Of a DNA stretch of 64,000 nt, positions 17 through 63,800 are shown piece after piece. The position numbers and the translations under genes are program-made. The notes beneath the pieces were generated by a model that worked only from the letters and a program-made list of their open reading frames with translations, searched no databases and was not told the origin of the DNA. The DNA comes from Tetradesmus obliquus (taxonomy: Eukaryota > Chlorophyta > Chlorophyceae > Sphaeropleales > Scenedesmaceae), in contig CP126192.1 in the NCBI GenBank assembly GCA_030272155.1, positions 6,916,501-6,980,500 on the forward strand, written 5' to 3'. Within the stretch, counting starts at the first letter, position 1. Every line of letters starts with the position of its first letter.

Positions 17-1160
17 GCCGATGTGCTGCTGCGCGTGACCAACACAGCCATCTGTGGCTCCGACCTGCACCTGTACGTGCACGGCATGCCAAGCATGAAG
101 AGCGGCGATGTGCTGGGCCACGAGTTCATGGGAGTGGTGGAAGAAGTGGGAGATGCCGTGACGAAAGTGAAGCGGTGAGTGCGTTGTTTCTATGTGTCTT
201 TGGATGTGGCTCTTGGACAAAGAGCAGTGATGTGCTGGGTCATGAGTTCATGGGCGTGGTGGAAGAAGCGGGGAAGGCCGTAACCAAGGTCAAGAGGTGA
301 GTGTTAAGAGGTTCAGAGGTTAGGGGTTAGGGGCGAGGGTTCTGGGCAGCAGCTCTGGGGCTGTAGGGCCACTAGCAAGAGAGTGGCAGAGGAGGTGGGC
401 AAGCCTTGCTGGGGGTTAGGGTTTAGTTGATCGTCACCACGGTCAAGCGGTGAGTGCGTTGTTGGGGTTTGGGGCTTTGGATCAAGGGCGTGTTCTGTTG
501 CAGGTCCAAAGTTCAATGTGGTAATGGCATGCCTGGCATGAAGGATGGAGATGTGCTGGGCCATGAGCTCATGTGCGTGGTGGGGGTAGTGGGCGGTGCA
601 TTGAACCAAAGTAAGCGGCGGGTGCAGGGTTTGGGGTTTGGGGTTTGGGGTGTATGGGGTTGAGGGTTTCAGGGGTATGAATGCAGGCGATGTGCTGGGC
701 TGCAAGTTTCAAGCGCGTAGGAGGAGGTGGGCAAGAGCGCCCATCAAGCAGGGATCGCACATTTACGTTGCTGCCAATGTGACAACAGTCTGGCGATCTT
801 GCGCCTAATGCTGGGCTTTGAATGCGACTCAAAGTCCAACTTTAGGCGCCAGGTCGCCAAACTCACCGATCAGCCTAGGGAAACACAGGGCCATACATAG
901 TATTATGAGTTGCAGCAAAGACATTGCATACTGGGACAGCATCAATGCAACATAATGCGTGCTCACATCTAGAAGGTAGGCCCCCTCGCCACCATGGCTG
1001 GTGCCATACATAGGCGCTGGGTTTCTTCTAGCAGAAATAGGTTGGTACTGGGCACTCCGGAGGGTCCTCAACTCAATCGCCTAGATGTTGTGACAATACA
1101 CAACTGCGCTTGCACACCATAGCGTCCGCGCAGCTGCACCTTGATTGAGCACTGCCTCGA

Positions 1161-1191
<31 letters not shown>

Positions 1192-4019
1192 CGCTGCTGT
1201 TGGCGCCTGCAGGGGTGACCGTGTGCTGGTGGCGTTTGACATTGCCTGTGGGCACTGCTTCTTCTGCAACCACGGCTACCAGAGCAGCTGCGACAGCACC
1301 AACCCCAGCAAGGTGTGTGTTTCTTGTTATGCTTTCTTGTTATGCTTTCTGTTGGCTGTGGAGTGTGAAATAGCCGTACAGTGTCACAGCACAGTTGTGC
1401 TCAAGTAGGTGTGCCAACCAGCTCCTCCAACCATGCAGCCCCGCTGCTTGGTTCATTTGTTTCACGATGCAGGTGCAGGAGTCCATGTATCGCCAGGCTG
1501 CAGGCGGCCTGTTTGACTGCAGCCACCTCACTGGGCGTGTATTAAATGCAAGGGCCCTCCAACCTCATGCCTTACATTTCTTTTGTCTTTGTTGGGCCAG
1601 GCAGCTGGTGGCTTCTTTGGCGTACAGCCACCTCTCATCAATCAATCAATTTCACCTCACATGGTGTGTTTGTATGTAATGCCAAACAACTGCACTGCAT
1701 ATTGCTGCTACTGATTGAATGTTGCAGTTGCACAAGACAATGTACGGCCAGGCAGCTGGCGGCTTCTTTGGCTACAGCCACCTCACATGGTGTCTTTGTT
1801 TGTAACATCAATCAACTGCACTGCAAACTCCCGCTACTGGTTCCTGCAGGTGTCGGAGGCTATGTACCGCAAGGCCATGGGTGGCGTCTTTGGCTGCAGC
1901 CACCTCACATGATATCTATGCTTTAGCACCAAGCAACTCGGTCGATTTCAATGTTGTTCGATGTTTGCGTTTGCAGATTTCGGAGGCCATGTACGGCCAG
2001 GCCATGGGTGGTGTCTTCGGCTACAGCCACCTTGCAGGCGGCTACCAGGGCGGCCAGGCCGACTACGTGAGGGTGCCTTTTGGTGAGAGCCGGATGCAGT
2101 AACAGCAGTGTGGACACATGTTTTCATGTTTGTGTTTGCAGGTGCAGGAGGCCATGTATGGCCAGGCTGCAGGCGGCTTCTTTGGCTACAGCCACCTCAC
2201 AGGCGGCTATCAGGGAGGGCAGGCGGACTTTGTGAGGGTGCCTTTTGGTGAGAGCTGGCAGCAGTGCTGTGGACGCAGCAGCAGTAGTTGCAACGCAGCA
2301 GCAGCAGCATTATTGCCGGCACGCCTGAGGTCTTTGAATAAGCAGGTGGTTGAAAAGGAGTTGCTGTAGAACGGCAGCAGCCATTTTGAACTCCCAGCCT
2401 CATTTTCCAGGACAGCCACCTCAACAGGCGGCTACCAGGGCGGGCAGGCTGACTATGTGAGGGTGCCTTTTGGTGAGAGCAGCAGCAGCAGCAGCGGCAG
2501 TCGTGAGGCAGCAGCAGCAGCAGCATGAAGCAGGCGGGCAGGCAGGCTATGCGAGGTTGCCCTTTTGTAACAGCCGGCAGCAGCCCAGCAGCAATGTAGC
2601 AGTAGTACAGGTGGTGCAGCACACCTGACGTGCTTCCAAACCAGCTGGTTGCAGGGTCCGCCTACTGTTCAACAGTGGCAGCACGCTTCAACCGCCTGAT
2701 TAGAAGGCAACCAAGCCTGTGTTGTTCGTGTGAGGGTTTGGCTGAGTATTTGTACAGCAGTGGCACTGCAGCAGTACTTGATGTCGCTGCATGTGAGGTA
2801 TGCTGTGCTGGTACACTTTGCTACGTAAACTGGCAGACTAACTACGCGAGGGTGCCCTTTGGTGAGCACAGCAGCAGCAGTGCAGCAGCAGCAGTGCAGC
2901 AGCAGCAGCGGCAGCAGCAGCAGCACTGCAGACATAGCAGCACATTCACGGTCCTTCGCAGCCAGGTGGTCGGGGTGCTGTTGCCTGTCAAAAGCAGCAG
3001 CCACTCTTGACTCCTAGACAGCTTGGAAGCATCGGGGCCTCTGTTGTTGCTGTAGAGTTTGCCTCATATGACGCTCCAGCCTGTCGCGTGATTTGCTGTG
3101 CTGCTACAGACAAGCTTTGCGCTCCTGCTGGCTTCGGCTGTTTCTTCTAGTTGTGTTTCATCTGTTTCATCCATGGTTCCAAACGTAGTTTGGTTTCAGA
3201 TGAAGCTGCATGGACATGCAGTGTGCGGTTGCATAACGTACACAACTGATGAGTGCTGTTCGGGGTTGGTTTGAAAATGCAGCACCGAATCTCTTGCTGC
3301 CCCAGAACCATCATACTCTCTGCTCTGCGCACCCTCTGCTGATGGTGCGCACGATGCTCCATAACAGGGGTAAAAGCGCAACCTGCAGGTGCTGTAACCC
3401 ACCTGTGGACTGCCTCGGCATTGTCTTGTGTGCGCTGTTCTGCAGGTGATGTGAACTGCCTGAAGGTGCCTGATGGCCTGGCTGATCATGATGTGCTGTC
3501 CTGACGGACATCCTGCCCACAGCTTGAGCACTGCTGCTGCTGCTGCCGCCGCCGTGTCACAATCATGCACCGCCTGCAGGTGACGTGAACTGCCTGAAGG
3601 TGCCTGATGGCCTTGCCGATCACGATGCGCTGTTCCTCACCGACATCCTGCCCACTGCGTGGCATGCAAACGAGATGGGCGAGGTGCATGAGGGGGATGT
3701 GGTGGCCATCTGGGGCGCAGGACCAGGTGGGTGGTGTAAATGCACATGGATATTGCAGTCTGCATCTTATTGTGAACAGTGAAGGAGAGGGCCGCGTGAT
3801 GCGCGAGGTGCATGAGGGGGACGTGGTGGCCATCTGGGGCGCGGGGCCAGGTGCGTAGCATGAGCTGCTTGATGAGTATGCAGCAGAGGGCTGCTCAGCT
3901 GTTGGTGGTCATCCTCAAACGTAGTCTGCACAATTTAATGTAGACACAAGGTGCGTGACGTAGCTGTGGGGTGTATTGCATGAGGCGATGCATTGTTGCC
4001 TACCTTGGATCACCCTGCA

Positions 4020-4054
<35 letters not shown>

Positions 4055-7000
4055 CTGCTGCTACTGCTGCTACTGCAGTGGGCATCCTGGCCGCGCACTG
4101 TGCCCAGCACAGGGGCGCGCGCCGTGTGATCATGATCGACAGCGTGCAGGACCGGCTGGACTTTGTCAAGAGGAAGCTGCCTGGCGTTGAGACGCTTAAC
4201 TTCAAGGAGAAGGAGACCGTGTCGGCGCTGAGGTGAGCTGACATGTTGCGCAACATGTTACATATGGGTATTTGACTGTGATTCGCAGCGTGCAGCATTC
4301 ACGGTGTCATTGTGCCAGCGCTCAGGCAGGTTTGATACAATTGTTGAGTGCAAGATGTTCATGTGCTATGTTGTGGTGTTGGACCGGCAGACTTTGTCAA
4401 GAGGAAGCTGCGAGGAGTTGAGACGCTGAACTACAAGGAGAAGGAGACTGTCTCAGCGCTGAGGTGGGTTTGTCATGTCATGACGCATTTGTTTTGTTTT
4501 GTGTTTTGCGAGTCAACATGCTACATGGTTTTGTGCAGCTGTTGGGCCGGCTGGACTTTGTCAAGAGGAAGCTGCCAGGGGTGGAGACACTGAACTTCAA
4601 GGAGAAGGAGACCGTCTCAGGGCTGAGGTGGGTTTATCATACATGCTTGAAGGTGTGCAGCTTTACATCTGCTGTATAAATATGTTCTTGATACATGTTT
4701 AATGCAAGAAGTACGTGTGCCGTGTTGTGTGGTTGACCGCTGGACTTTGTCAAGAGGGCGCTGCCAGGTGCGGAGATGCTCAACTTCAAGGAGAAGGAGA
4801 CTGTCTCAGGGATGAGGTGAGCTGGCACATTCCAAGAAGTCAACTGTTATGTCCTCTCATGGTCTTGGCAGTGGCAGGGGCATGGCGTGGAACTGCTTTC
4901 GTGGTTTGGTGCAAAACCACTTGTCAAGAAACTCGCATGCTATGCAGTGTTGACAAGCAGAGCCCGCATTTGGCGGGTGGGTAGGCGTTGCGTTGACAGC
5001 TTACGTGGCCCTCTACTCCTGCTGCTGCTGCTGCTGCCATTGCAGGGAGATGACGGCCAACGAGCCCGGGCATGGCCCTGATGTTGTCATTGAGGCGGCC
5101 GGCTTCCATTACAGCAAGTCCTGGCTGCATGCAATCGAAGATGAAGTTTCTGCTCCTGCTGCTGCTGGTGATGGTGCTGCTGCTGTTTCTGCTGCAGGGA
5201 GATGACCGCTAACGAGCCTGGGCGTGGCCCTGATGTGGTGATTGAGGCTGCCGGCTTCCACTACAGCAAGTCCTGGCTGCATGCCATTGAGATGAAGCTG
5301 CAGCTGGAGACCGACACTGCAGACATGCTGAACGAGATGATCACTGCTGTGCGCAAGGGCGGGCGCATCTCCATTGTGGGCGTGTACATCGGCTTCGTGA
5401 ACCACCTCAACATCGGTGAGCATAAGATAGCCACAAGTTTCATTTGAAGACAAGTGCGAGTGATGACCGGGGTTTGTCGCTTACGATTGTGCGAGTGGGA
5501 GTTTGCATTGGCTTTGTGAACCACCTCAACATCGGCGAGCGGGATGCTGTGGGCTTGTGTGGGGCTTTATGAAGAAAAAATTTCACCTGAACATGTGTCA
5601 TTGGGCTGCTGTGCATTGCTGGCATCTCCATTGTGGGCGTGTACATCGGCTTCGTGAACCATCTCAACATCCGTGAGCGAATGCCAGGAGTGTTGCCTGG
5701 TGAGTGGGTTGAGGCGCTTTGTCCCTGACATGAACATGTGCGAGTGGGCGTGAACCACCTCAACATCGGTGAATGGGGTTCTGTGGTATCCGGTGGGGTT
5801 TTGTGGCCCGCCTTTACATGAGTGAGTGGGCTTCTGTGCAGGACTCACACTTCCATCGTGGGCGTGTACATCGGCTTCGTGAACCACCTCAACATCGGTG
5901 AGCGGTTTGTGTGTTGGGGCAGTAACAGCCGCTGTCACGTCCGTAATTAGCATTGAGCACGCTGTGTGGCGACCTCAGCATTGATGAGTGGGAGTGTACA
6001 TCGGCTTCGTGAACCACCTCAACATCGGTGAGTGATGATCTGGGGCTTCGTTGGGTTGGGCCAATTCAATTTCACACACCATGTGCCTGAGTAGTTAACA
6101 AGCATCTAGCTGGCAGCCAGAGCTAAGTACCCTTGCTGCTGGTGAGTCACCTCAAGTGAGGCATAGTAACATAGTAATCAGGCATCAGCAGCTGTGCCGA
6201 TTGGCATAGCAGTCTGGTGGGGTGTGCCTGCTGCCATGGGGCAGTGCTGCGCTCACATACAATGCATGCTGTCTTCTGTGTCGGAGGCTTCCTGTGCCAT
6301 CCTCAGGGGCTCTGACACAGCAGATTGCACATCCTGTGCAGCGTGCTTTGCTTTCATTCTGGTGCTTGTCTGACCCATTGGATGGTTTGCGATGCTGTCT
6401 TCCTGTCTGAATCATGGTTCAGCTAGTTCATTGAGTTCAGCTGGTTGTTTGTCTGCTTATTGTTGTCTTCCCATTGCGGGTCCTACTAGCTCGTCACTCA
6501 GTGTAATCAGCCGGTTTTTCCGGTGTTGTGGAGCTTTGATTGAAATTTTGCAGTACTATGGTCGGGCAGCAGCAGCTGCTGCCTTTGATAGGCAGCGGCA
6601 CGTGCGGCGTGTACAATGTGGTACGTCAGTGCAGCATTAACAGCCAATGCTGTCTCTTGCTTCGCCGACTCCTGGTCATCCCGGCACTCAACGAAGCAGC
6701 AGACAACACAGCCTGTGAAGCGCTACTGTATATGTGTTGGCTCACCTCAGTGCATGGTGTGTGCTGCTCATAGCCCGAACCTTTGTCACCCGCTGCCAAT
6801 GCTCACCTCATCTCACCCCATCCGGCCTTGACTGCTTGACTGCCCAACATCAGGTGCATGCATGGAGAAGCAGCTGCCCTACTTGGCCTTTTGTGTTCTG
6901 GGTCCCTCCTTGGGATTGCCACGCCTGGCACTCTCACTCCAACCCCTGCTGGCTGCTCTCACTCGTCTCCAGTGCACCAGGTGCGTCAAATGAAGAGTCG

Positions 7001-7866
7001 CTGACAAATCCTGCTGCGCCTGCTCCTGCTGCTGCTGCTGCTGCTGCCACCCCCCAGGCGCGTTCATGGAGAAGCAGCTGACCATGCGTGGCGGTCAGAC
7101 GCCCGTGCAGCGCTACTGGCCCACGCTGCTGCCCAAGGTGCAGGCAGGTGAGACATGTAACAGCCTTGGCGGTTGCAGGGTTTCCTCTGAAAAGCACAAG
7201 ACAGACAGGGTCTTGTGCCTTTTGAAGGCAGCAGTTTTGGGGGTGCCAAGGAAAGTGCCAGATGGTTCAAATCAACCCCTGATGTGCTGCCCCCGAGCAT
7301 TCCTGCTTGCTGTTGCTGATGTGGCACAATGTGCATCCAGCTGCAGCTCCGCTTGATAGAACCTGCTTGTTATGGCCAGCACGCTCCCAAACTGCTGCTG
7401 ATGCTGCTGCTGCCGCTGCCGCTGCCACCGCTGAGGTGAGCTGGCATCTTCTATCATGAACACTCTCTTACGTGTTCAAGTTGCTGTAATCAGAGGCCAT
7501 TATGACTGCTGCTGCTGCTGCTGCCGATGCTGCCACTGCTCATTTGTGCAGGCGAGCTGGTGCCGTCCATGGTCATCATGCACGTGCTGCCCCTTGACCA
7601 GGCGCCCAAGGGCTATCAGATGATGAATGTGTGTGTGGTAATATCCTGCTGCTGCTGCTGCTGCTGTGACTGCTGCTGCTGCGGCTGCTGCCACCACACC
7701 CACAGGCGAGCTGGTGCCGTCTATGGTCATCACGCATGTGCTGCCGCTAGAGCAGGCCCCCAAGGGCTACAAGATCTTCAACGAGAAGAGTGACGGCTGC
7801 ATCAAGGTGGTGCTGCAGCCGGGGGCAACAGAGGCGGTCACACTTCCACCTGCCGGCAGGACATAA
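17..7866 (+). CDS. Zinc-dependent alcohol/formaldehyde dehydrogenase-like protein, 5' partial
   Basis: An MDR-family zinc dehydrogenase oxidising an alcohol or hydroxymethyl adduct with NAD(P); it is closest to the glutathione-independent formaldehyde-dehydrogenase-like subgroup. Exons chosen: 17-174, 1213-1312, 2142-2247 (or the twin 1977-2082), 3580-3726, 4079-4232, 5198-5415, 7058-7147, 7706-7866. All have GT-AG borders and agreeing phases, giving 377 residues to a TAA stop; about 10-30 N-terminal residues lie left of the window. Visible motifs are CGSDLH (catalytic-zinc Cys), GHEFMG (His/Glu), a four-Cys structural-zinc loop around CGHCFFC, and GAGPVG at the dinucleotide-binding turn. The C-terminal [14 protein letters not shown] fits the family. 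Its introns carry about 25 partial exon copies, described separately. Substrate is inferred from family resemblance only. Confidence 0.9.
205..614 (+). repeat. Echoes of the first visible dehydrogenase exon
   Basis: Three diverged copies of the 3' part of exon 17-174 lie in the following intron: about 205-298, a short one at 427-450, and 527-614. The first keeps the reading frame and ends in a usable AGAG|GTGAGT donor; the third has lost the GT (GCGG|GCGGGT). In the first copy about nine of twelve codon differences from the true exon are synonymous. Confidence 0.85.
1471..2870 (+). repeat. Echo array of the dehydrogenase YSHLTGG exon, with one complete twin exon
   Basis: Copies of the exon encoding the [21 protein letters not shown] segment recur at about 1471-1531, 1600-1635, 1733-1785, 1850-1912, 1977-2082, 2142-2247, 2414-2480, 2528-2568 and 2830-2866. 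Only 1977-2082 and 2142-2247 are complete: both are 106 nt, open, preceded by TTTGCAG and followed by GTGAGAGC. Copies left of them are 5' fragments and copies right of them are 3' fragments, as if the array grew outward in both directions. Confidence 0.9.
3444..3852 (+). repeat. Echoes flanking dehydrogenase exon 3580-3726
   Basis: A 5' fragment at about 3444-3530 repeats the [16 protein letters not shown] segment after its own CTGCAG acceptor but is broken by an indel. A 3' fragment at 3796-3852 repeats [15 protein letters not shown] and ends in CCAG|GTGCGT. Confidence 0.85.
4380..4817 (+). repeat. Three echoes of the 3' end of dehydrogenase exon 4079-4232
   Basis: About 80-85 bp encoding [20 protein letters not shown] recurs at 4380-4462, 4547-4628 and 4735-4816, each ending in a donor-like CTGAG|GTGGG or ATGAG|GTGAG. 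The middle copy is fully open and differs from the exon mostly at third codon positions. The first has a one-base deletion near its start. Confidence 0.9.
5041..6030 (+). repeat. Echoes on both sides of dehydrogenase exon 5198-5415
   Basis: One 5' copy (about 5045-5142, EMTANEPG to WLHAIE) precedes the exon with its own TTGCAG acceptor. Five 3' copies of the [13 protein letters not shown] end follow it, with boundary positions near 5534, 5672, 5768, 5897 and 6027 (true exon end 5415). Spacing is 96-138 bp. Most keep GTGAG after the boundary; the second has GCGAG. Confidence 0.9.
6030..7057 (+). other. Large dehydrogenase intron remainder
   Basis: After the last echo the intron continues for about 1 kb to the CCCCCCAG acceptor at 7057. 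It holds a short degenerate echo of the next exon (MEKQL, about 6852-6885), and the last 45 bp before the acceptor are CTG repeats. I see no gene on either strand. Confidence 0.6.
7551..7640 (+). repeat. Echo of the terminal dehydrogenase exon
   Basis: [22 protein letters not shown] is repeated 155 bp upstream of the true last exon (7706), preceded by GTGCAG. It diverges after the Gly-Tyr and lacks the KIFNEK end, so the 7706 copy is taken as the exon. Confidence 0.85.
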
Positions 7867-7990
7867 GATCTCAGTTCTTGCTGGCCCTGTGTGGGATGGT
7901 GTCAGGCAGTACCTGACTTCCACCTGCCGGCAGGACATAAGATCTCAGTTCTTGCTGGCCCTGTGTGGGATGCAGTCAGGTACTGCCTGA
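7843..7990 (+). repeat. Two-copy direct repeat across the dehydrogenase stop codon
   Basis: About 73 bp beginning CTTCCACCTGCCGGCAGG, containing the TAA stop and some 3' UTR, is repeated immediately downstream (about 7843-7916 and 7917-7990) with few differences. It shows the duplication habit also affects coding/UTR junctions. Confidence 0.85.
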
Positions 7991-9176
7991 CACAGGCGTG
8001 AGTGCAAAGGCACGCAGAGCGGGAGTGCGCAGGTCCTGCGCCTTGTGTTGCACCTGTTTTACAAGGTGGGGCAGCATCTGGCGTCCTAGTGCGTGGCGTT
8101 TGAGTGCTGCCCCACAGATGGTGCACTACGGGCTGTTATTGTATTTGCCATATGTTGACCACAATGCTGATGGCTTGTCATACATGGGGTACGTCAAGGC
8201 CCCGGTCGTTGCATGCATGGCATAGCATAAATGCGGCATCACGTTCTTGTGGTTCTGATGCAATTTGTTGAATTGTTGGGGGGGCTGCATAGCAGTTTAT
8301 GAATCACGAGTTGCTGTTGAGCTGCAGGGGTCAGCATTGAGCTGTGTTACACTGCCAAGGTTCGGTGCAGCTTTGCTCAAGCAGCTTTGCACGGTGGTGT
8401 TGTCTGCTCCAAGTCGCTGTTTGAAGGAATGCCACTTTGACCGTTGCATCACAGCAGTGCTGGCTGCTGCTGCTGTTGTGACGCATACTGCTTGCCACTG
8501 GCCAACACTGCGCTAGTGTGCAGTTGCACTAGCTGCACTGATGCTGGCGACATGTAGCCTCCAGATCTGGTGCGAAGTTGTTACTGAGCTATGTTTGAGA
8601 CTGTTGCAGGCCACGCCCCAACAAGCGGCGTGGTCACTCAACAGATGTCACGCCAACAGACCAAAGCAAGACACCACCAAACAATGCGGCTGCTTGCAGT
8701 CATTCACAGGGTCATATAGTCTTGATACAGCCGCCGTGATAATCATGCAGCAGACTCGGCTCCACCATATGAAGGTGGCCAAGTACTTCGGTACCATCGT
8801 AGCCACAAATCATTTTGTTACATCCGCAGCGCAGCAGTCTGCAGAAAAGGCCACCCATAATGGTATTTTGCCAAGTTGCCCCAATATCACACCAACCCAC
8901 AGATGTTATTGCAGTGCAGCTCTTCATCAGTGCACTAGACCAGGCATGCAGTAGCTACCAGGCATATAGTAAGGATCGCAGCCGCAGTGCTGCTGGTGGA
9001 CCTGCTGGAAGGATGCTGAATAAGGCAGCGCAGTCCTGCAACATTTAATCACGTATTTCCCAGAGTGCCATATGAGTTTGGCTCAATTCTTGGAAGTGCA
9101 CAAGGAAAGCATATGCCCGGTGAACCAGCTGACACCTGCTATTAATATATAACCGTACTACACGCCAGCTGCCAGA
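7991..9176. other. Convergent intergenic region
   Basis: This lies between the 3' ends of the dehydrogenase (+) and the hydroxylase (-). No convincing coding sequence is seen. TTACA at 8818-8822 reads TGTAA on the minus strand, about 360 bp past the hydroxylase stop, and is a candidate polyadenylation signal. Confidence 0.5.
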
Positions 9177-12100
9177 TCATGCTGCTGTCACCTCAGCTTC
9201 CGCCTGCCCCTGCTGCTGCTGCTGCCCCTCCCCCTCCCCCTTCCACTCCTTCAGCAAATGACACATGCCGCATGCCTTCAGGCAATGCCCCGGCGCATAC
9301 TTGCTGCCAATCATGTATGCCACGTTATTTGTGCACTCTCCGGTGCTAGCCCACGAGTCGCAAAAGTCATTATCGTCTTCGCAGGCGCCCTTGGTTTTTG
9401 GTATTTGGTGAACCTCCTGCTCAATGGCAATTGGGACTTCGCCGGCAGTTGCGTAGTGCCCTACGTGGATCCATTTTGCCATGGAGTACTTGACACCCTG
9501 CAGAAGCAGCAGGGCAGCGCAGGGCAGAGGGCAACACAAACCATTACGAACGCAGATCAATGGCTAAGCATGAAAGGATCAAGCCAGTCGCGCAGTGCTC
9601 CACGTGCAGCCACCTCGCCATGGACTACTAGACACCCTGCAGCAGCAGCAGCACGGGGAAGTCACAGAGCAGCACGGAGCACAGCGCAACACACCATTAA
9701 GACAGGCAGGACAACAACTAAGCAGAAATGATCCTCCCAGTCGCGCAGTGCTCCACGTGCAGCCACCTTGCCATGGAGATACTTGACACTCTGCATTAGC
9801 ATGGAGACAACAGGTCAGCTGCCTTGCCTGCCATTACGCGGCAAGCCAGCGAAACCTGGAGCGCGACTGCTGTGTGTGGTGCTGTTGCAACAGGTTGCCA
9901 AAACACACACCCCAAATTCAGCTGCCAACAGCAGGCATATGCAGTGGCTTGCATGGTTTGCGCATCAGCGCAGATATGTCACGCCACGCCAGGCCAGCGC
10001 ACCTTGATCACCGGGCATGCCGCGTGCAGGCTCTTCTTTTCAAACGCTCCGTGCGGTGCAATGGAGTGGAACAGCACAGCATCTCCCTTGCGCGGCCTCA
10101 CCGCCAGGTGCTACAAAACCAAAAGCCTTACCCATGCAGAGACCACATGCCGCTTGCAACTATGCTGCTGCTGCTGCTACTTCCAGCGAACACAACAGAA
10201 TGCGGCCACTTCACAGCAACTTGCTGCTGCTATGTCAGCGCACCTTTATCACAGGGCATGCCGCGTGCAGGCTCTTCTTTTCAAGCGCCCCGTGCGGTGC
10301 AATGGAGTGGAACAGCACAGCATCGCCCTTGCGCGGCCTCACCGCCAGGTGCATGCTTTGTTGCTGCTGCTGCTGCCAACACACACACACACACACACCC
10401 CAACATCCACATGGGAGAAGCAGTAAGCAAAAAACCACATAGCATGCTGTATGTATGAATGCTGGTCTTGCTGCCGCCAAGCCAGCGCACCTTGATCACC
10501 GGGCACGCCGCGTGCAGGCTGTTCTTTTCAAGCGCCCCGTGTCGAGCAATGGAGTGGAACAGCACAGCATCATCCTTGCGAGGCCTCCCTGCCAGGTGCT
10601 TGCTTTGTTGCTGCCGCCGCCAAGACGCACAACACAGCAACCACATTACAAAAGCAGGCAGCACAAACCAAACAGTGCGCCGCGTGTGCGAATGCTGGTC
10701 TTGCTGCCGCCAAAACAGCGCACCTTGATCACCGGGCACGCTGCGTGCAGGCTCTTCTTCTCAAGCGCCCCGTGCGGTGCAATGGAATGGAACAGCACAG
10801 CATCGCCCTTGCGCGGCCTCACCGCCAGGTGCTTGCGCGCACACTCGCTGAAGCCTACATTCTCCCCTCCAGGCGCAGGAATGTTGGGAAAGACCTGCGT
10901 GCAGTGGCAGCAGAGGCTGCTTCAGTGAGGGCACAGTAATAGGGTTGCCGTGTTGGTGTGCGCCCTCTAAGCACAGTGCCAACAGGTGCTTGCGTGCACA
11001 CTCGCTGAAGCCAACATTCTCCCCTCCAGGCGCAGGGATGTTAGGAAAGACCTGCGCATAGCAGCGGCTGCAGTGTGGGCCTCACGGTTTGCAGGTCACG
11101 CGGCCTCACTGCCAGGTGCTTGCGTGCACACCCGCTACAACCCGCGTTCTCCCCGCCCTGGAGCAGATATGTTGAGGAAGACCTGCATACAACATTGTGG
11201 GCTTGAATGGTTTGTGGTGTGGGCTTCAGTGCATGCACAGCAGGCAGTGCACCTTGACATCAAGTGCAGGCACGGCTATGCTTGCCATGCTACCCATCGG
11301 CTCGCAACTGTCTGCAAGCTTGTTTTGCTCGATGTCGTCATCAACTTGCTGCCCCAAGAACGGCCATACTTGTCATGCTTGCCATGCCCTGCTTTCCACA
11401 CACAAGCAGGACCGATGCTCAACTGCGCGGCTGACAAGGAAATAGAACCACGCGCCGACACTGCAGCACCGCTGCGCAGGTGCAGCTACCTCACCGTCTC
11501 TCCCCCTTCTTCCACATCAGACAGGTAGCTCAGCACGGTCGCGGCTCTGTTGCCGCCATTGGCGGTGCCCTCCTTGTGGAAGAAGTAGTCCCTGGCGGCA
11601 GCGGCAGCGGCAGCAGCAGCATGGCTGATTTGGTCGCACGACGTAAGTTGGTTGGAGGCCCTGGCGCAGCTGCTGACGCCACCACTAAGCATTATTGAAC
11701 GGCAGGCAGGACTGCCGGACTCTGTAGCAGGAGTATCACTGCGTGAAACATTTAACATCAAACGCCTGCTGCTGCTGCTCACCAGTGTGCGTCGTACTTC
11801 TGGCTCTTGTGGTAGCGCACCACAAGAGCCTGCAGCAGGAAGTGCATGCGCCAAAGGCTTGCTGCAATTTAACTGCTGTTGCTGCTGCTGCTGCTGCTGC
11901 TGCTCACTAGTGTGCGTCGTACTTCTGGCTCTTGTGGTAGCGCACCACAAGAGCCTGCAGCAGGAAGTGCATGCGCCAAAGGCTTGCTGCAATATAACAG
12001 CTGTTGCTGCTGCTGCTGCTGCTCACCAGTGTGCGTCGTCTTCTGGCTCTTGTGGTAGCGCAGCACAAGAGCCAGCAGCAGGAACTGCATGTGCCAAAGG

Positions 12101-13744
12101 CCTGAAATGTGACTGTTGCTGCTGCTGCTGCTGCTGCTCACCAGTGTGCGTCGTACTTCTGGCTCTTGTGGTAGCGCAGCACAAGAGCCAACAGCAGGAA
12201 CTGCATGTGCCAAACGCTTGCAACGTAACTGCTGTTGCTGCTGCTGCTCACCAGTGTGCTTCGTACTTCTGGCTCTTGCAGTAGCGCAGCACCAGAGCCA
12301 ACAGCAGGAACTGCAGGAGCTTTACGTGCCAAAAGCTTGCAAGCCGCCGCCGCTGCCACTGCTGCTGCTGCTGCTCACCAGTGTGCGTCGTACTTCTGGC
12401 TCTTGTGGTAGCGCAGCACCTGCAGCCCCTCGCCGTTGCCCACCGGCAGCAGCGTCCACGCCGCAATGCGCTGCTCAATGGCTGCAGACAGGCACACAAG
12501 CCAGTAACAGCAGTCAGCAAAAAATCACAGCAGCCAAACACGGCAGCATCCTGCCGTAGCCAACAGGCAGCAGCGTCCACGCTGCAATGCGCTGCTCAAT
12601 GGCTGCAGACAGGAACAGAAGATAAAAACAGCAGTCAGCAAGAGATCACAGCAGCCAAACACGGCAGCCCCGCGCCGTTGCCCACCGGCAGCAGCGTCCA
12701 CGCTGCGATGCGCTGCTCAATGGCTGCAGCGCAAACGAGACGAGACAAGAACAAAAGTGCGCAAGCAGCGGAAGCAATCAGACGGGTAGTCTAGTTGGGG
12801 TCTAGTGTGGTTCTTGCAGATGCTGCAATTTCAACCACCATGGCAGCTGCAGGAGCTGATGATTTGCCATACAGGCGCTGTGATCGGAACTGCGCATGGT
12901 TCGATGACAGGGCACACGCGGCAAAGCGCACGCAAGTGAGTTAGTGAGTGACTACCCAGGCAGCTCTGCAGCTCCTGGGTAAGTTAAGGCTTAGAGGGTG
13001 TGTGTGGCCAGGACGGCACCCCTGGGCTCCACACCCTCTACCTGAGCGCACGCATACTCACACCCTCTGCTGCGCATCCCTCTGCTGCGCACCCCGTACA
13101 ACCCGGACCTGCACCGCTCCTAGAGCCAGCCGCGGCTGGTGTGCATGTGCAGACGCCAGCAAATGCCGTCCTTAACCACATACAGGTTTTTCTCAGACGC
13201 TGATGCTCGCCCTTGACACCATCGTCCTGGCCTCTTTCCACTATCATGCCACTGCTGGTGCATATGTGCTGATGCCACAACATGCGAACCATTCTATCCA
13301 CTATCCACTGAACCAGCCAACTTCATGGTTGCGCTCACCCTTTACAACATCGTCCTGACCCCGCTCCAGAAACACGCCGCTGCTGGTGCGTATGTCGCTG
13401 ATGTCGCTGCCGCCGCTCTCCGTATTGACTACGCCGCTGCGTTGCAGCTGCGGGTCTGACAAAGCGATGATGTGGTCGCACTCCTCTGCAGCAGCAGCAG
13501 CGGCGGCGGCGGCGGCAGCAGCAGTGAGTGAGGTAACATAGGGCGTTGATCAGCAATTCCTGCAGGTGTAAATAGATACGGCAAGTACACTCTGCAGAGA
13601 TATTGCAGCTGCTGTACATGCAGGGTTCACAGCACACAAGGCATCCAGACAGAAGAGGTTTACAGAGTGGAAACATCAAAGCACAGCTCATGCAGTCGTG
13701 TGACACAATGCATAGCTTCCTGCTGCTGCTATGCCTTGACCGCA

Positions 13745-13782
<38 letters not shown>

Positions 13783-13951
13783 ACGATACACTGCAGCCCA
13801 CCGGGTGACAGGAAGCCCCTGAACAGGAAGATGCGGGCCTCCCCATCAAGCACCTGCACTCACACAACAGCACAGCAAGGATTGTCTTGCTGCTTAGCCA
13901 AGTCTTTTGTTCAGCAGCACGCCTGATAGTGCCGTTATGCTTCTGCCCCTG

Positions 13952-13993
<42 letters not shown>

Positions 13994-14558
13994 GTGGAGA
14001 TCATAGTGTTGCAGAGCCAGAGAGGAAGAAGCTGTGCATTGCAGCAAACACCTGCTGCACTGCTCCCATTCTGGGCAACACCATGGCAGTGCATTGAACA
14101 GGTTGAAGCCCCACACAAGCTAGCAAGGTTGATGTCTGGCAGTTGCTGCTGCCCAAAGCGGCTGCAGCAGCACACCTGCATGCGCTCTGTGCGGTGGCTC
14201 AGCACATCCGGTTGCACTGGTACTGCTGCTCCAGCTGAGGGCGGTTCAACTGATGGGTTTGAATCCAGATCACCGCCAGCCCAGTCTGCAATCCACGGTA
14301 GGTTGAGCACTGAAGAAACACATCAGCAGGTGCTGTGCAGACGCTGTACATATCAGGTTGCTCTGTGGCAGGCTGTTCTGCAGCACTTGCAGCAGCAGCA
14401 GGGATAGACGCTAAGCAGAGGACAGTACTGCAGGGCACGCATCGCACACCTGGTGGCGCAGCATCTTCATCGTACGCAGTGTTTGCATTTTTGGCAGCTG
14501 CCAGCAAACACAAGGCAGCCAATGAGAGCAACCTCAGTGTCGTGTCCCGTTTCGACAT
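9177..14558 (-). CDS. Prolyl 4-hydroxylase with C-terminal ShK domain
   Basis: A 2-oxoglutarate/Fe(II) dioxygenase that hydroxylates proline in secretory-pathway proteins. Eight exons: 14558-14450, 14285-14176, 13853-13802, 13485-13339, 12481-12379, 11591-11495, 10894-10724, 9497-9177. All phases agree, giving 369 residues and a TGA stop. The start at 14558 is followed by a hydrophobic leader (LLSLAALCLLAAA). The iron triad is the His-x-Asp of YDAHWDYF and the His of KKSLHAACPV; the Lys shortly after it would bind 2-oxoglutarate. The last exon carries a six-Cys ShK module (CEDDNDFC to CGMCHLL) and an acidic/Gln tail. The architecture is usual in plants and algae. Introns contain about 15 exon echoes. 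Confidence 0.92.
9590..9795 (-). repeat. Two echoes of the hydroxylase terminal exon start
   Basis: Copies of GVKYSMAKWIHV at about 9595-9645 and 9735-9790 lie in the intron upstream of the last exon. One has two consecutive TAG codons in place of Lys-Tyr; the other has a one-base insertion. They are decayed copies, unlike several clean echoes elsewhere. Confidence 0.8.
10000..11185 (-). repeat. Echo array around hydroxylase exon 10894-10724
   Basis: Three 3' copies (GDAVLFHSIAPHGALEKKSLH, ending before CACC on the + strand) lie at about 10000-10111, 10239-10352 and 10488-10598. Spacing is 236-249 bp, close to twice the 120-bp spacing seen elsewhere. Two 5' copies (FPNIPAPGGENVGFSECARK) lie at about 10985-11050 and 11115-11185. 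Only 10724-10894 contains both halves. Confidence 0.9.
11776..12330 (-). repeat. Five echoes of the hydroxylase LRYHKSQKYDAHW exon end, each with a hairpin
   Basis: The 3' end of exon 12481-12379 is repeated with its CACTG|GTGAGC donor. Boundaries are near 11779, 11903, 12022, 12138 and 12247 against 12375 for the true one (spacing 109-128 bp). In the first two, an 11-bp inverted repeat (GGCTCTTGTGG / CCACAAGAGCC, 7-base loop) follows the echo, at 11802-11830 and 11927-11955. The others keep imperfect versions. The true exon lacks the right arm. Confidence 0.88.
12550..12735 (-). repeat. Two 5' echoes of hydroxylase exon 12481-12379
   Basis: The segment IEQRIAAWTLLPVGNG with its CTGCAG acceptor recurs at about 12553-12612 and 12665-12732. 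Separation is 112-120 bp. Confidence 0.85.
13206..13270 (-). repeat. Echo of the hydroxylase TSSGVFLERGQDD exon end
   Basis: A single diverged copy (TSSGMIVERGQDDGVKGE) lies in the intron after exon 13485-13339. The junction reads GGCGAGC where the exon has GGGTGAGC, so the donor GT is gone. Confidence 0.8.
13748..13990 (+). repeat. Two (CTG)11 tracts in the hydroxylase intron
   Basis: Pure CTG runs at 13748-13780 and 13958-13990 flank exon 13853-13802. Further pure runs of 11-13 triplets occur at 41596-41634 (MLH1, CAG), 44548-44580 (RING gene, CTG read as Ala) and 47341-47373 (repeat-module gene, CAG). Confidence 0.95.
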
Positions 14559-15702: not shown

Positions 15703-18700
15703 TCAGTCAGACTCGCCGCCAGCAAAGGCAAACAGCGCAGCTGTGTCCAGCGCAGCATGCATGTCTTCCCCATCCCCACCAACACCCGCTGCTGCCACCG
15801 CAGCATCCTCATCTACCGCTGCTGCTGCCGCTGCTTCCACAGCTGCCGCTGCAGCTGCCTTTTCCTGCAAGCGCTGCTTGCCCTGCTTCATCAAGCTCCC
15901 TCCGCTGAGTGCACTCTGCCCTGCTGCACCCCTTGCTGCTGCCGCCGCTGCTGCTGCCGCCGCCTTTGCTGCTGGCAGCAAGCCATCTTTGACCATGTCT
16001 GCTGTCAGGTGCTCAAACAGCTCCCCGAGCTGTGTGCCCAGGCCCAATGACAAACCGGACCCTCCATCAGAACACAGACTCACCTCCCGCTGCTGCTGCT
16101 GCTGCTGCTGCTTGTGCTGCTGCTTGCAGCTGCCGTCCTTGCCTGCTTCCTGCAAGCCTGCCCCTGCGTCAACACCAGTTCCTGCAAGCGCCACGCCTGC
16201 TGCTGCATCTTCCTGGCTGCTGCCGCTGCCATCACCGCTGCTGCTGCCACCCCGCATGCTGCTGCTGCTGCCTCCTGGGCTACCGCTGCCAGGTGCACTG
16301 CTGCTGCCGCCGCTGCTGCTGTTGAGCTCAGATAAGCCACCCATCAGCGCCACATCGCCAAAGCACTCCAGCACAGCACTTGATGCACGCAGCCGTGACC
16401 TGCTGCTGCTGTGGTGCCGCCTGTGCCTCTTTCCAGACAGTGACTTGTTGCTCTGTGAGGCTCCAGCAGCGGCAGCAGCAGCAGCAGCTGGTGATGTAGG
16501 CAGCATGCCAGGATCGTCCGTGGGGCTGTAATCTACTTGAGACATTACTACCTCTGCCACTGCCGCAGCAGCAGGCACTGCGTTTTCTTTTCCGTCCTCG
16601 TCTGCCGCTGCTGCTGCATCATCTGCTGCAAGAGCTGCTGCTGGCTGCGATGGCTGTGAGCTGCCTGCTGCCTCTGCCTGTGAGGGGTGGAAAGACGCCT
16701 CCTCTGACTCAGCATCTGCTGGCACACCCGCTGTTTCTGCTGCAGCCGCAGCTGCTTCTACTAGTGGCCGCGGTGCTTCAACTGCATGCTGCTCCTGCTG
16801 AGCGCAAGGGCTGCCAGCGGCACGTAACAACTGCTGCTGCTGCCGCTGCAGCGGGCCCTGCACTGCAGGGGGTGAGTTGAGCAGGCAGCCCACCACATCA
16901 GGAAGCAGCCCTGACAGGAATGAGTCAGACAGCCTGCTGCTGCTGCGGCGTGCTGCTGCTGCAAGTGCTGGGGAAGCAGCAGCAGCTGGACTGCTGCTGG
17001 CCATCACAGGTGCTGCTGCTGCTGCTGGCTTGCTGCAGCGTGCCTCCTCTGCGTTGTCTGCATCTGCCTGTGCTGCTGCTGGGTCTGTTGGTGAAGCTGC
17101 TGGTGCTGTGGTAGGCGCTGCTGTGAAGGTTGATGTGTGGGGTGTGCATTGGAGGCTGCTGCCAGGTGCTGCTGCGGACTGCAGCTGACGTGGCACTCCA
17201 TCCTGGTCGCTGACACCGCTGCGCGGCGGCAGCGCTGCTGCTGCTGCTGCTGTAGCAGGCAGCTGGCTGGCTGCCTCAGCCAGCGTGCTCAGTGCTGGCT
17301 GCTCAACAGGGCTGCACTGCTTGGCTGCTGCAGCTGGCTTCGCTGCTACTGCTGCGACTGCATCCGCTGCAGCCAGCGTGTGCGTAGCTGTAACTGCAGC
17401 ACCAGGGCCCACCGGCAGTGCCGTTTGTGGGCTGTGCTGCTGCTGCTGCGCCTGCATGTCTTGCTCAGGCTGCCACTCCTCAGTGTATGCAACAAACTCC
17501 TCACAGTCCTCTGCAGGGCCAGTCTCAGCATCAAACCCCTGCTCAATCGCTGCTGCTGCTGCTGCTGCTGCTGGCAGGGCTGCTGCTGGTCCTACTCCAG
17601 CAGCAGCAGGCAGGTGATTGCCAGCTGCTGCTGCCTGTGCTGCTGCCAGCTGCTGCTGCAGCTGCCTCACTAGCTCATCTCGCTCCCGCAGCTGCTGCCT
17701 CAGCAAGCTCACTGCACCACAATCCACTGCTGCTGCTGCTGCTGCCGCTGCTGGTGGTGCAAGGTCTACAGGCATCACTGCAGCACTTGCAGCAGCAGGT
17801 GCCAGCAGAGGCTGCTGCAATGCAATCACCTCTGCTGGTGCTGCTGCCTTGCTGGCCAGCTGCTGCAGCGACCATGCGCTGTGTCTGCTGCCTGCCCCAA
17901 ACAGCAGCTTTGCTGGGGACTGCCAGCTGTGCAGTTTCGGGCTTAGTGGGCTGACCTCATCCTGCAGCAGATCCTGCTGCTGCTGCTGCTGGTGATGGTA
18001 CTGCTGCAGCTGCTGCAGGCGTGCCACGCTGCAGCTGCTGTGCCTGATGGTGAGTGCAGCAGCGATGGTGCTGTCAATGTCATCCATGCGTGCCTCTGCT
18101 GCTTCAATTTCAACCCTGCAAGCGCAGCAGGCGGCAAGAGCAGGACCTCAGCTACAGTACGGCACGCGTACCTCTACAAAACCCAACATAACAGATGCAA
18201 GAGGAATGATCTGATTATGCTGCCACAGGTCAAGCACTGCTCATTTTGGCAGCGCAGAGCTGCTCATATTCAGCTGTGGGTGCTGCTTATGCTGCATGTT
18301 TTAGTGCTGCTATGTGGGCTACTCACAGGGGTGTGCCTTGCAGTTGCTGCTGCTGGCTTGCAAGCTCCTGCAGCGCCTCGCTGTAGAACTTCTTGACAGC
18401 GACTGCACGCGGCAGCAGCAGCAGCAGCAGTGTAACATATCCGTGGCAGCAGCAACAGCAGGAGCAAGGGCACCACAAAGCAACAAGAAGATGCAACAGC
18501 AGCAACATCTCATCACAGCCGCAGTAATGATGCTTCAACACCCTAGCCTGGCCTGCCAGCCCCACCGTCATTGTTGCGTCGTGACCATAGCTCACCTGCC
18601 AGCCCCACTCCCAGTGTTGCATCCCGCAGCTTGCGGCGCAGCGCCCTGCCCTTGTTCCAGCAAGAATACAACACCACCATTACGCACAGAAGAAACAGCC

Positions 18701-21700: not shown

Positions 21701-22193
21701 AGCGCCGCTGCTGCTGCTGCAGCAGGCAGTGTTCTGCCAGTCTGCATACATTTCAGGCACATGCAAAACTGCTCACTGATGTGCAAAAGCTCGTACAAGT
21801 TTCCTGCAAAGAGCACTGCTGTGCACACCAACACAGGCCACTGTCTGACACCAGCCTGTCTCACCATCGCTGTCATCATCAGATGAGTCATCCTCGCTGC
21901 TGCTGCTGTCCACCTGCTGCTTCTGCTGCTGCTCAAACAGCGCCCAGGCTGCCTCTGCTTCTGCCTGCTCCTCAGCCGCCCTCCTCGCATCATCATCACC
22001 AGCACCCGCTGCTGCTGCTGCTGCTGCTGCTGCTCCCTCATCCTCTCCATCAGAAGCCGCACCCCCTGTGGCACTGCTGCCAGCAGCAGCAGCAGCAGAT
22101 CCTGATCGCGCCCGGCGCCGCTTCGAGCCGCTGCCAAACCGCAGCTGCAGCCCCCTGCCCTTCGCTGCTGCTTTGCCATCAGCCCCACTGCCC

Positions 22194-41635: not shown

Positions 41636-41876
41636 GCCGTCAGTTGATGCGCCGACTCAAGTACCACCAGGCAAGGCAGCAGCATCTGCAGCAGCAGGCG
41701 GTTTGCTGGGTGCACACCGGGACCAGCAGCAGCGCGAGTGGCTGTTGCGGCATGTGGTGATGCCTGGCGTGAAGGCGATGTACAGGCCGCCAAAAGAGAG
41801 GGCGAGGGATGGCAGTGTCCTGCTGCTGACGTCCATGGAGAAGCTGTACAGGGTGTTTGAGCGCTGTGGCTGGTGA
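37211..41876 (+). CDS. MLH1: DNA mismatch repair protein MLH1
   Basis: MutL-homologue ATPase acting after MSH recognition of mismatches, in heterodimers with PMS-type partners in the nucleus. Five exons: 37211-37684, 38144-38229, 38499-39774, 40416-40616, 41109-41876. Phases agree; 934 residues, TGA stop. The GHKL ATPase has [31 protein letters not shown] and GFRGEAL. The transducer region includes [13 protein letters not shown] 200-residue Ala/Gln linker with a 15-codon CAG run precedes the C-terminal dimerisation domain ([29 protein letters not shown]). The protein ends [11 protein letters not shown], two residues past the FERC tail that is terminal in other MLH1 proteins. Exon echoes surround exon 40416-40616. 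No lesion is seen. Confidence 0.96.
39583..39627 (+). repeat. (CAG)15 in MLH1
   Basis: Fifteen uninterrupted CAG codons encode poly-Gln in the MLH1 linker. Being a triplet repeat, length change keeps the frame. Confidence 0.97.
39850..40330 (+). repeat. MLH1 echoes between exons 3 and 4
   Basis: The end of exon 3 (QHTWVGM with GTGAGT) is repeated at about 39853-39874 as QHTWMGM|GTGAGT, with a weaker copy near 39955-39985. The start of exon 4 ([15 protein letters not shown]) is repeated at about 40256-40318 with an extra Leu codon, and a degenerate copy is near 40141-40175. Confidence 0.85.
40670..40845 (+). repeat. Two echoes of the MLH1 exon 4 end
   Basis: [15 protein letters not shown] with its CAG|GTGCGC donor is repeated at about 40680-40733 and 40795-40841 (true end 40616), steps of 108-117 bp. 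The peptide is unchanged in the first copy and nearly so in the second. Confidence 0.9.
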
Positions 41877-60800: not shown

Positions 60801-63800
60801 CAGGTGGATGTTGAGCGGTGTGAAATGTTGGCGTGTGTCTTGTGGTTTGTTACACAGCGCCTGCTGGGCTGGAGGAGGCGCGCAATGTTAGCGAGGAGCA
60901 GCTCGCATTGAAGCAGCCGAACCAGCAGGTGGGTTCAGCATTGCAAGGTGTTGGTGCAATTGAAGATTTGTCTTGCTTGCTGCTGCGGGCGGTTTTGGGT
61001 GGTGTTTTTTGCATTGAGGATTCTTGATGGATGATCTTTGGGCTCTGGGGAAATCGGTAGGATGGTGTTCTTCAAGAGTGCAACGGGCGGATGAAGACAT
61101 ATCGCAAAAGCTGCTTGGGGTCTCCTTGCATTGATGTTGCCTAGGGACGCGCATTGTCTACCTACTCTGTGCGCAGCCGTGCTGCTCGCGCCAACCAGAT
61201 GCCGTTGTCCTGAACTCTGCGGTGCTCACACGTCATTGGCTTGGCTGCCCTCCGTCCCACCTTGCAGGACGCTGCATGGGAGGCTGCTCAGGCAGCAACT
61301 GGAAGGACCACCAGCAGCAGCAGCACAGCACCACCGCCACCTACCCTAACACTGCCTGGAGAGACCACCAGCTTGGCACCCCTCAGGATCCCACGCTTGT
61401 CATATGACAGTGCGGCACCGCGTTTGAACGGCGCAACGACAGCTGGCACGACACCACTGCTAGCTCCCACAGCAGCAGCAGCTGCTGTGCTGCCAGGTGG
61501 TGCTGCTATCACTACACACAGCACCAGGGCTGCTAGAGCAGCAGCTGCTGCTGCGCTGCCTGCTGATGCAGCTCACTTCTCTCTGCTTGAAACACATGCA
61601 GCACATGATGCAGGCATCCTGCATGGAGCAGGCATGCACACACCAGTGTACAGGTCAGCTGCGGCTGTGCAGGAGACTGGGTTTGGCCCTGCTGGCAGCA
61701 GCAACAGCAGCAGCGGCGGCAGCAGCACTGGCAATGGTGCCGGCAGACAAGTCTGCGCTGGTGGTGGCAGTGGTCCCTTTAATGCAGGCATCAACAGCAG
61801 CAGCAGCGCCGTGGGAAGATCAAGCGACACTGGCAGCACCAGCAGCAGCAGCAGCTGGCGCGCTGCACAGGAGGCAGCAGGCAGAGGCGGTGCATCAGCT
61901 GCAGGTGATGTCGAAGCAATGCAGATTGACCAGCAGCAGAGGAGGCCTAGCGGTGGAAGCTCAGCTTCCAGCATCCACGGGGAGGCCAGGCAGGACGAGC
62001 AATACAAGCAATCTCCTGCAGGCGGAGATGCAGCAGCAGCAGCAGGGCCGGGCGGCTTCAGGCGGCTGGTGGGGTTAGTGACAGGGTCTGGCAAGAACAA
62101 GCTGCGCGGCTCAAGCATTGATGAGTCTTTGGGCGGCCAGGCTGCAGCAGCCACAGCAGCTGTTGGGGGGCAGGGCGCTGCAGCTGGCACTGCTGGTGTA
62201 AATGATGATGGTGCGTGCCGCTGCTGCTGTTCGACCGCTGCTGCGACAGCCACTGCATGCCTAAAAGCACTGCAGGAAAGCTGATCATAATGCTACGCCT
62301 GGGAGCACAGCACAACTTGCGTTGAGCACTGCAGCGTGTCGGCGCTGATCAGCTTGATTCAATGTGACGACTGTCTCTCTGCACACCTGTATACAGCTTC
62401 CTTGCTGCTGATCGACTGCTGCACAAGTTGAAGCACATGGTTTGACTTATATGCATTGTAACACACGTGCTACTTCCCTGTCTCCTGCAGGCCCCCCGCT
62501 GGTTGTCACGCATCCGCTGGACCTGCTCTGCAGCCGTGCCACTGAGCCGCATGCCGCCAAGTGCCTCAGCCGCAGCAGCATGTCTTCCCAGGACACTGTC
62601 ACCACAGGCAGCGGAATACTGATCAACCTAGACAGGAGCCATGGCCACAGCTGCAGCAGCCCACTGACAGCAGCAGCAGCAGCTGAGCAGCAGCATGCAG
62701 ACAGCGCAATTAGCGTCGCTGCTGCTGCCGGATGTGACGATGGCAGGGCGCACACTGGCGGCAGTATTGAGCGGTTGATGGATGTCCATGCAGCTGGCGG
62801 GGCAGCAAGCAAGGCAGCGTTTGGCACAGCTAGCAGCCTGCCAGGCAGCAGCAACAGCAGCTGGCAGCTTGCATCTGGCGCTGATGCCAGGGCTGCAGTC
62901 GGTGCAGCACCAACGTCCTGCAAGGACACCGCCCTGCTGCTGCCAGATCTGCAGCAGCTGCTGACACATCCGCTGGGAGCAGCAGCAGCGCAGCAGCTGC
63001 TGCTGCCGCAGCACCATATGATCCAGGTGAACTATGCGCTACAGGACCCTGCACAGGCATACCTGCTGGAGCATGCACCAACGCCTGCTGTGTCAAGCTT
63101 TGAGCTCGTGCGTGAACCAGCAGCACGTGAAGCCAAGTCAGTGCAGCAGCTGCAGGGCCTGCTGCCATCTGTCGGTGCCAGCCAAGCAGCCGTCACAGCA
63201 GGAGCAGCAGCAGACGCAGCGGCAGCCAAGAACATCGAACACGGCAGCAGTGCCAGCAGCAGCGCCGAGAGGATCCCTTCTGGCAGGGGTGGGAGGCTGG
63301 GGCGGCCGCTGCTGCTGCTGCGCCAGCTGCGGGCGGCTGGCAGGCGCTTGCGGGGCAAGCAGGGGGCTGCGGCCAAGGCAGGCAGCCAGCAAAGCGAGCA
63401 CCTGCTGGGCTTCTCAGGTGCGTGCAGCTGCACCTGCAGTAGCGTTCAGTTTTCTGCCCTATTTCAGCGTCCTTGCTGGCATTGGCTTCGGATGTCTATG
63501 CCATGTTGTGATAGCAGGTGTATTGGTTTAGCTGTCACGTGCAGATGAGATTCCAGCCATCTCTTGCATTCCTTGTCTCTGCACAGCCTGGGTCTCGCCA
63601 CTCTCTCCAGTCAGTGCAGTATCACGTGCCGTATCCTGCGCGTGCAGCTGCAGTCAAGTGCAGCTACACACAAATGCAGGTTGCGCTGCCTGCGACTGTT
63701 GTACATGTTCACTCTGTGCCGCTGCTTACATGTACCTCTGCTGTGACGTGTTTGCAGGCAGCGGGCCTCCCGGCCGCACGCTCATCCGCACGCGCGTGGA

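Follow-up and report, generated by a model that had tools for sequence, protein, structure and literature searches.

How does an intron come to hold several copies of the edge of the exon beside it? The question is raised by a 64,000-nucleotide stretch of the chlorophyte Tetradesmus obliquus (contig C2, positions 6,916,501-6,980,500, in an assembly of 104.66 Mb on 17 contigs), hereafter the window, in which introns carry diverged copies of the end or the start of the adjoining exon together with its splice site, here called exon echoes. That introns of this genome carry such copies is confirmed by the comparisons set out below, and the pattern looks like a by-product of local duplication, not a source of working exons.

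Exon edges repeated in the adjoining introns

When the masked window was compared with itself, 110 local (≤1.5 kb) direct pairs and no local inverted pairs were found, whereas none of 10 shuffled versions gave a pair. Under stricter settings 93 direct pairs lay within 3 kb of each other and 1 was more widely spaced; there were also 6 inverted pairs, not one of these local. By a rough rule, which lets in a few arrays that are not echoes, these form 34 arrays with about 89 extra copies, against a figure of about eighty exon-edge copies in a preliminary description of the window; copy counts are rough throughout. The stretch from 31.5 to 36.9 kb has no array in the masked self-comparison.

Exon borders were taken from three genes for which database proteins, possibly predictions themselves, could be placed by spliced protein-to-DNA alignment: a Zn-dependent dehydrogenase (17..7863, forward strand, its 5′ end lying off the window), a prolyl 4-hydroxylase (9180..14558, reverse strand) and MLH1 (37211..41873, forward strand, 5 exons). 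Together they provide 18 introns and 36 borders that do not depend on an ab initio gene finder. The dehydrogenase's own protein, OEZ86_000999 (P0121), aligns at 377 of 377 residues of the in-window part, from residue 66 onward, in 8 exons (17-174, 1213-1312, 2142-2247, 3580-3726, 4079-4232, 5198-5415, 7058-7147 and 7706-7863), and that of the hydroxylase, OEZ86_001000 (P0241), at 369 of 369 residues, also in 8 exons. MLH1 was modelled from P0001, a T. obliquus protein from another source, in an alignment with 14 gap steps, across which the position-by-position identity of 462/920 is not meaningful; a composite MLH1 query matches T. obliquus proteins at 98%. A self-trained gene finder was also tried as a source of gene models and dropped: in its second iteration it recovered 33 of the 36 true splice positions of these genes but predicted 105, its training having drifted onto CAG repeats and its genes being over-split.

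Copies of an adjoining exon are present in 13 of the 18 introns. Comparison of each exon with its adjoining intron yielded 47 hits in 19 of the 36 pairs (E≤0.01; identity 76-100%), against 0-3 hits in each of 20 shuffled-intron sets and none on the minus strand. Among 342 non-adjoining exon-intron pairs, 19 gave hits, 25 in all and none longer than 36 letters, and the minus strand of these non-adjoining pairs gave 24. At E≤1e-4, 18 of the 36 borders are affected, and 40 of the 42 hits reach to within 6 nt of the intron-facing exon border, the other two not being anchored there. Among the border-anchored echoes, 21 of 25 donors have GT and the remaining 4 GC, while 14 of 15 acceptors have AG, so that the retention of border and splice site described from the letters alone is substantiated.

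A self-comparison of the three genes that was blind to exons found 17 arrays, every one of which includes a coding border (16 exon-intron borders and 1 stop codon), and none of which is purely intronic. In the gene models the splice site in use is the first donor or the last acceptor; the copies therefore lie beyond it, within the intron. Direct repeats that span an exon end and adjoining intron stand beside the original, if perhaps not in every array.

The same arrangement recurs elsewhere in the genome. Of 20 random 10-kb loci, 19 (190 kb) were used, one (L002) consisting entirely of N. Their exon labels come from the self-trained gene finder, employed here only, which over-predicts and is noisy: L005 has a printed frame with stop codons, and some of the border arrays of L016 lie mostly in sequence labelled intergenic. 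Local direct duplication occupies 24.6 kb of the 190 kb, and direct pairs outnumber inverted ones by 191 to 7. By predicted label, 62 of the 80 arrays include a border, 9 are intronic, 6 exonic and only 3 intergenic, even though about a quarter of the sequence is (noisily) labelled intergenic; by the same labels an array has up to seven copies. The facing border is absent in 82 of 272 echo hits, and of the 181 counted after 5 terminal and 4 short-flank hits had been dropped, 78 of 89 acceptors still have AG and 69 of 92 donors GT, with 7 more having GC. Pfam checks and printed peptides, which covered only some of the predicted proteins, identified, among the genes with repeated peptides, those of a cyclophilin, an SGT1-like protein, a short-chain dehydrogenase and an ATP/ADP transporter. 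Border arrays are present on 13 of the 17 contigs, the window counted in. The earlier view of a widespread habit that affects both strands and unrelated families is supported. Echo density seems uneven between genes: five of the 19 loci (L001, L004, L007, L008 and L017) have no border array, and L005, L014, L016 and L020 have 8 to 10 each.

An assembly artefact has very nearly no standing as an explanation of these arrays: the copies mostly differ (76-100% identity) and carry private changes, unlike mis-joined identical copies, and border arrays are spread over the 13 contigs. The repeats are, moreover, local and of a characteristic size. Over 114 arrays of the window and the random loci, the smallest shift per array has a median of 125 bp (quartiles 109-157), with a second peak near twice that value. 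Two echo blocks searched against the whole 104.66-Mb assembly matched their own locus only (4 of 4 and 6 of 6 matches), and one spacer matched itself only, in a search that skips very common words.

Composition of the unit and its proposed origin

The architecture of an array is mostly an edge and a spacer, repeated, followed by a terminal edge, and, unexpectedly, the two parts of this unit have not persisted alike. Between the used exon and its echoes, the exon side is 0.87-0.91 alike to 36 nt and 0.79 alike at 36-48 nt, and the splice hexamer is about 0.9 alike; from +6 into the intron, similarity is 0.62-0.64, unrelated sequence giving 0.59. Pairs of echoes are 0.853 alike over 30 nt on the exon side and 0.660 on the intron side. 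In many pairs the flanks are not alignable at all; where they are, they nearly match the exon part (0.900 and 0.900 in echo-echo pairs, 0.857 and 0.915 in exon-echo pairs). Local alignment with simple repeats masked finds homologous flanks in 18 of 40 exon-echo pairs, 16 of 39 echo-echo pairs and 97 of 181 random-locus pairs, and when whole spacers are aligned, 10 of 40 adjacent pairs reach z≥3.

Position within the array matters. In the three genes, the flanks of adjacent copies match (z≥3) for 11 of 22 pairs inside the array but for only 1 of 18 at its outer end, controls giving 7 of 181. In the random loci, once hits below 78% identity, borders lacking GT or AG and short-flanked arrays had been set aside, the counts are in the same order 46 of 66, 25 of 78 and 3 of 224. 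The random-locus figures imply that an intron part was originally included in many arrays and was lost first at the outer end. Echoes have changed at a rate of 0.057 at codon positions 1 and 2, from which two free spacer copies would be expected to be about 0.89 alike. Since the intron sides on average fall far below this, something seems to keep the exon-derived part young, whether exchange with the exon, selection, or copying confined to exon edges.

We give an even chance to a scheme in which tandem duplication across the border is followed by amplification, the selected exon keeping the copies alike while their intron parts decay. Segments of about 125 bp straddling an exon-intron border would be duplicated head to tail. 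At a donor border the first donor would stay in use and at an acceptor border the last acceptor, so that the extra copy would come to lie inside the intron and the protein would be unchanged. Unequal exchange among the repeats would next raise the number of copies and so lengthen the intron. Each unit would consist of an exon-derived and an intron-derived half, of which the latter, with no constrained copy anywhere, would decay beyond recognition, while the former would be kept fresh through exchange, or gene conversion, with the real exon that selection maintains. It would also follow that arrays lying wholly within introns or between genes are scarce, because such arrays have no master copy, and the divergence of spacers relative to exon parts suggests concerted evolution among the copies.

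Several observations weigh against this scheme. No exchange or conversion event is seen in the DNA of this one strain, and the persisting blocks of homology, at 20-124 nt, are small for conversion tracts. Similarity on the exon side is favoured by the search, echoes having been found by their exon part, though the gap between the halves is larger than we would expect search bias alone to give. Extending the comparison outward from the border reveals no homologous intron part for 24 of 40 echoes, whose tandem origin is deduced from their spacing and from the other arrays. In the three genes one outermost pair did match (z 3.4), and taken together the outermost flanks are slightly above control (p 0.005). 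Finally, mismatches between used exon and echo are concentrated at third codon positions by a factor of 3.47 (bootstrap by array 2.47-4.87), when neutral echoes predict 2.

A simpler account dispenses with refreshment and targeting: random tandem duplication might occur everywhere, with copies inside exons purged by selection and those at borders absorbed by the intron. Units of about 125 bp in genes whose introns are about 300 bp would touch a border in most in-gene placements (we estimate about 0.6), noncoding arrays do exist (15 of 114), and the retained splice sites (GT in 21 of 25 donors, AG in 14 of 15 acceptors) are what neutral decay at about 0.057 per site predicts. At an echo divergence of about 0.06, random duplication should nevertheless leave intron halves about 0.89 alike, whereas in the three genes their average is near background, and most outermost flanks are unmatched; nor does it fit the counts of purely intronic (0 of 17) and intergenic arrays (3 of 80, on noisy labels). 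We consider it rather unlikely, at about one chance in five.

The absent intron halves would be explained differently if copying were anchored at the splice junction itself, an exon edge with some 6 nt of splice site being set into the intron beside unrelated spacer, for example from an RNA or cDNA template. Homology on the intron side extends only 3-8 nt in 17 of 40 echoes, and the array at the end of dehydrogenase exon 6 is an instance: all five echoes end 4-6 nt beyond the junction, and the spacers have no mutual similarity. What tells against such copying is the matching of inner spacers, in 11 of 22 pairs of the three genes and 46 of 66 of the random loci, and of random-locus outermost flanks in 25 of 78, so that many units do carry intron sequence; besides, the splice hexamer is the consensus of introns generally, and the apparent edge may equal the exon end. 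We hold junction-anchored insertion to be unlikely, somewhat more so than random duplication with purging by selection. A wider version, in which duplication or homogenisation keyed to splice junctions (RNA- or cDNA-templated, for instance, and using exonic sequence only) rewrites exon edges into introns and drives intron growth, fares marginally better and is doubtful all the same.

The CAG triplet deserves separate mention. Genome-wide, (CAG)7 occurs at 101,829 places on the forward and 103,641 on the reverse strand, overlapping places counted, the pattern read backwards giving 3 and 0. The preliminary description had offered, as a mutation process, tandem duplication primed by CAG/CTG repeats. 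A mutation process is partly supported, in the form of local direct duplication with a unit of about 125 bp; the priming is not supported, and we regard it as very improbable. In its favour, CAG repeats are extremely abundant, and the flanks of the hydroxylase exon-5 copies begin with a CAG run just past the donor, where the homology of the last copy ends. Yet CAG/CTG lies near only 18 of 29 distinct interior edges against a background of 0.72, and simple repeat is lower in echo introns than in echo-free ones (0.060 vs 0.120).

Coding potential of the copies

Could the echoes instead be working alternative exons, or decoy splice sites with a regulatory role, kept by selection? The codon-position ratio raises this possibility. 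Besides the value of 3.47 for used exon against echo, the third-position excess between echoes of the three genes is 2.28 (1.44-3.63). In the random loci it is 1.70 (1.25-2.35) over all framed hits, border or not, and 2.80 (1.99-3.78; 26 clusters) over border-including hits with a coding score of at least 0; it is 2.99 (22 clusters) at scores of at least 5, 2.63 (9) at scores of at least 10 and 1.28 (4) at scores of at least 15. Donor scores fall within the true range in 19 of 25 donor echoes, and acceptor-like sites lie near the inner edge of 13 of the 25, against 0.21 by chance, the copies not being independent. The database clusters of P0121 and P0241, with 11 and 7 members, possibly include isoforms.

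The remaining tests point the other way. Of 16 indels in the copies, only one has a length divisible by three, and the other 15 break the frame. Where echo and used exon differ in a residue (90 cases), relatives share the residue of the used exon in 84, that of the echo in 3 and neither in 3, and two of the differences are stops. Acceptor echoes show no surplus of donors near their inner edge (1 of 15 vs 0.12), and each database protein placed on the three genes includes a single copy. The idea that echoes are selected as coding exons, raised by the codon ratio, is countered by the indel, residue and splice-motif tests, and retention of splice sites was rejected as a sign of selection, neutral decay at the echo rate giving as much. 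From these comparisons we conclude that most copies are probably not working exons and would be neutral, and we hold a role as selected exons or decoys to be improbable; the idea that echoes are, as a rule, a source of alternative exons is not sustained. As for the third-position excess, exchange with the exons of other alleles is one candidate idea and may contribute.

Individual arrays and side observations

In the dehydrogenase (forward strand), copies of the end of exon 1 stand at +122 and +443 (83..625). Exon 3 (1468..2925) has copies of its start upstream at shifts of 165, 292, 414 and 669, the first of which covers nearly the whole exon, and a copy of its end downstream at a shift of 225. 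Exon 4 is echoed at its start (shift 134; 3440..3661) and at its end (shift 124; 3671..3856), exon 5 at its end (shifts 231, 395 and 584; 4149..4827), and exon 6 at its start (shift 152; 5020..5305) and, in five copies, at its end (5365..6045). In this last array the exon parts of 4 of the 5 echoes are 97-100% alike, and when the exon and its flank were searched against the genome, matches lay at this locus only, those of all five echoes stopping 4-6 nt after the splice junction. The start of exon 8 is echoed at a shift of 154 (7506..7775), and a 74-bp tandem copy runs across the stop codon into the 3′ end, where there is no intron (7842..7991). Beside the exon-1 echoes, intron 1 contains at 300-680 stretches like GGGTTAGGG and GGGTTTG, which we take to resemble interstitial telomere-type repeats.

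In the hydroxylase (reverse strand), echoes accompany the start of exon 8 (9446..9801), the end of exon 7, with three in the following intron and no match elsewhere in a genome search (9987..10836), the start of exon 7 (10812..11186), exon 5, with five of its end and two of its start (11766..12729), and the end of exon 4 (13205..13403). MLH1 (forward strand) has echoes of the end of exon 3 (39746..39982), the start of exon 4 (40113..40464) and the end of exon 4 (40559..40870; unit 113), the first two spacers of the last array being 96% alike and its outer flank 63%. The T. obliquus MLH1 clusters in the database have 1 member each; the 11 and 7 members of the dehydrogenase and hydroxylase clusters could represent isoforms in the annotation or sequences from other strains.

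Two further genes, whose exon models are unverified, carry six arrays each. A predicted gene at 15703..26378 (reverse strand), perhaps several merged, contains the IDM1 C-terminal domain PF23209 and is the PHD-GNAT gene of the preliminary description, with arrays at 18491-19680, 19992-20552, 21213-21370, 21444-21708, 22552-23254 and 24784-25474. The VTC-domain gene (PF09359; 57299..60958, forward strand) has arrays at 57299-57506, 58095-58434, 58570-58982, 58983-59221, 60179-60529 and 60597-60958. The RING domain match falls below the Pfam cut-off. A repeat-module gene that had been counted among the echo genes does not belong there: 49578-52964, predicted to be largely coding, consists of long direct repeats with smallest shifts of about 528 and 1485 bp, which is another kind of duplication than the echoes, and 48635-48878, near or inside the RING/repeat-module gene, is a minisatellite with a 40-bp unit, 6.1 copies and 99% identity, its copies being nearly identical, unlike echoes.

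Intron growth and comparison with known systems

Of the 12849 intron bases in the three modelled genes, 6207 (48%) fall within the spans of arrays, and introns with echoes average 871 bp (n=13), nearly three times the 306 bp of the others (n=5). T. obliquus has a mean intron of 462 bp, the longest of five chlorophytes, the rest having 230, 302, 284 and 270 bp (PMC5966456), and echo arrays may be linked to these long introns. The arrays offer a concrete way for introns to grow longer with no transposon involved. Echoes would also mislead gene finders, because the ab initio model used here labelled many of them as exons, and they supply numerous natural experiments on how splice sites are chosen and on exchange at short range between one copy under selection and another free of it.

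Among the matches listed, as far as their titles and the starts of their abstracts go, none reports such a habit in Tetradesmus or Scenedesmus, and the word "intron" has no occurrence in the main text of two Scenedesmaceae genome papers (PMC7590803, PMC7955037). Tandem exon duplication (PMC9013439) is alike in repeating exon sequence, with splice sites, in the neighbouring intron; it is unlike in that echoes are mostly a partial exon with one splice site, in up to seven copies and with frames lost. Homology in echoes runs 20-124 nt from one border and takes in a whole exon in 1 of 40, the shift-165 copy of dehydrogenase exon 3. The reading frame is not retained, 15 of 16 indels shifting it, and nothing was found to point to mutually exclusive use. 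Closer in mechanism are intron gain from duplicated AG/GT segments (PMC2891723), in which a local direct coding duplication is absorbed by splicing, and a duplication in a potato RdRp gene that crosses an intron-exon boundary (PMC4974935). Here, unlike in AG/GT intron gain, existing introns grow. That model also expects a copy of the downstream exon's start at the beginning of the intron and of the upstream exon's end at its close, and it was rejected, since the hits listed for the 18 introns place copies of the upstream exon's end toward the donor and of the downstream exon's start toward the acceptor.

Intronic tandem repeats and minisatellites are direct arrays able to change copy number. 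Echoes, too, are direct arrays, unlike minisatellites in that the unit is the edge of the adjoining exon and specific to its locus, and in that the exon part persists while the spacer decays. Under concerted evolution by unequal crossing-over and gene conversion, tandem copies stay alike and the outermost parts diverge. Echo copies likewise stay alike and diverge in their outermost parts; what would set them apart from ordinary concerted evolution is that the master copy would be a coding exon of the same gene.

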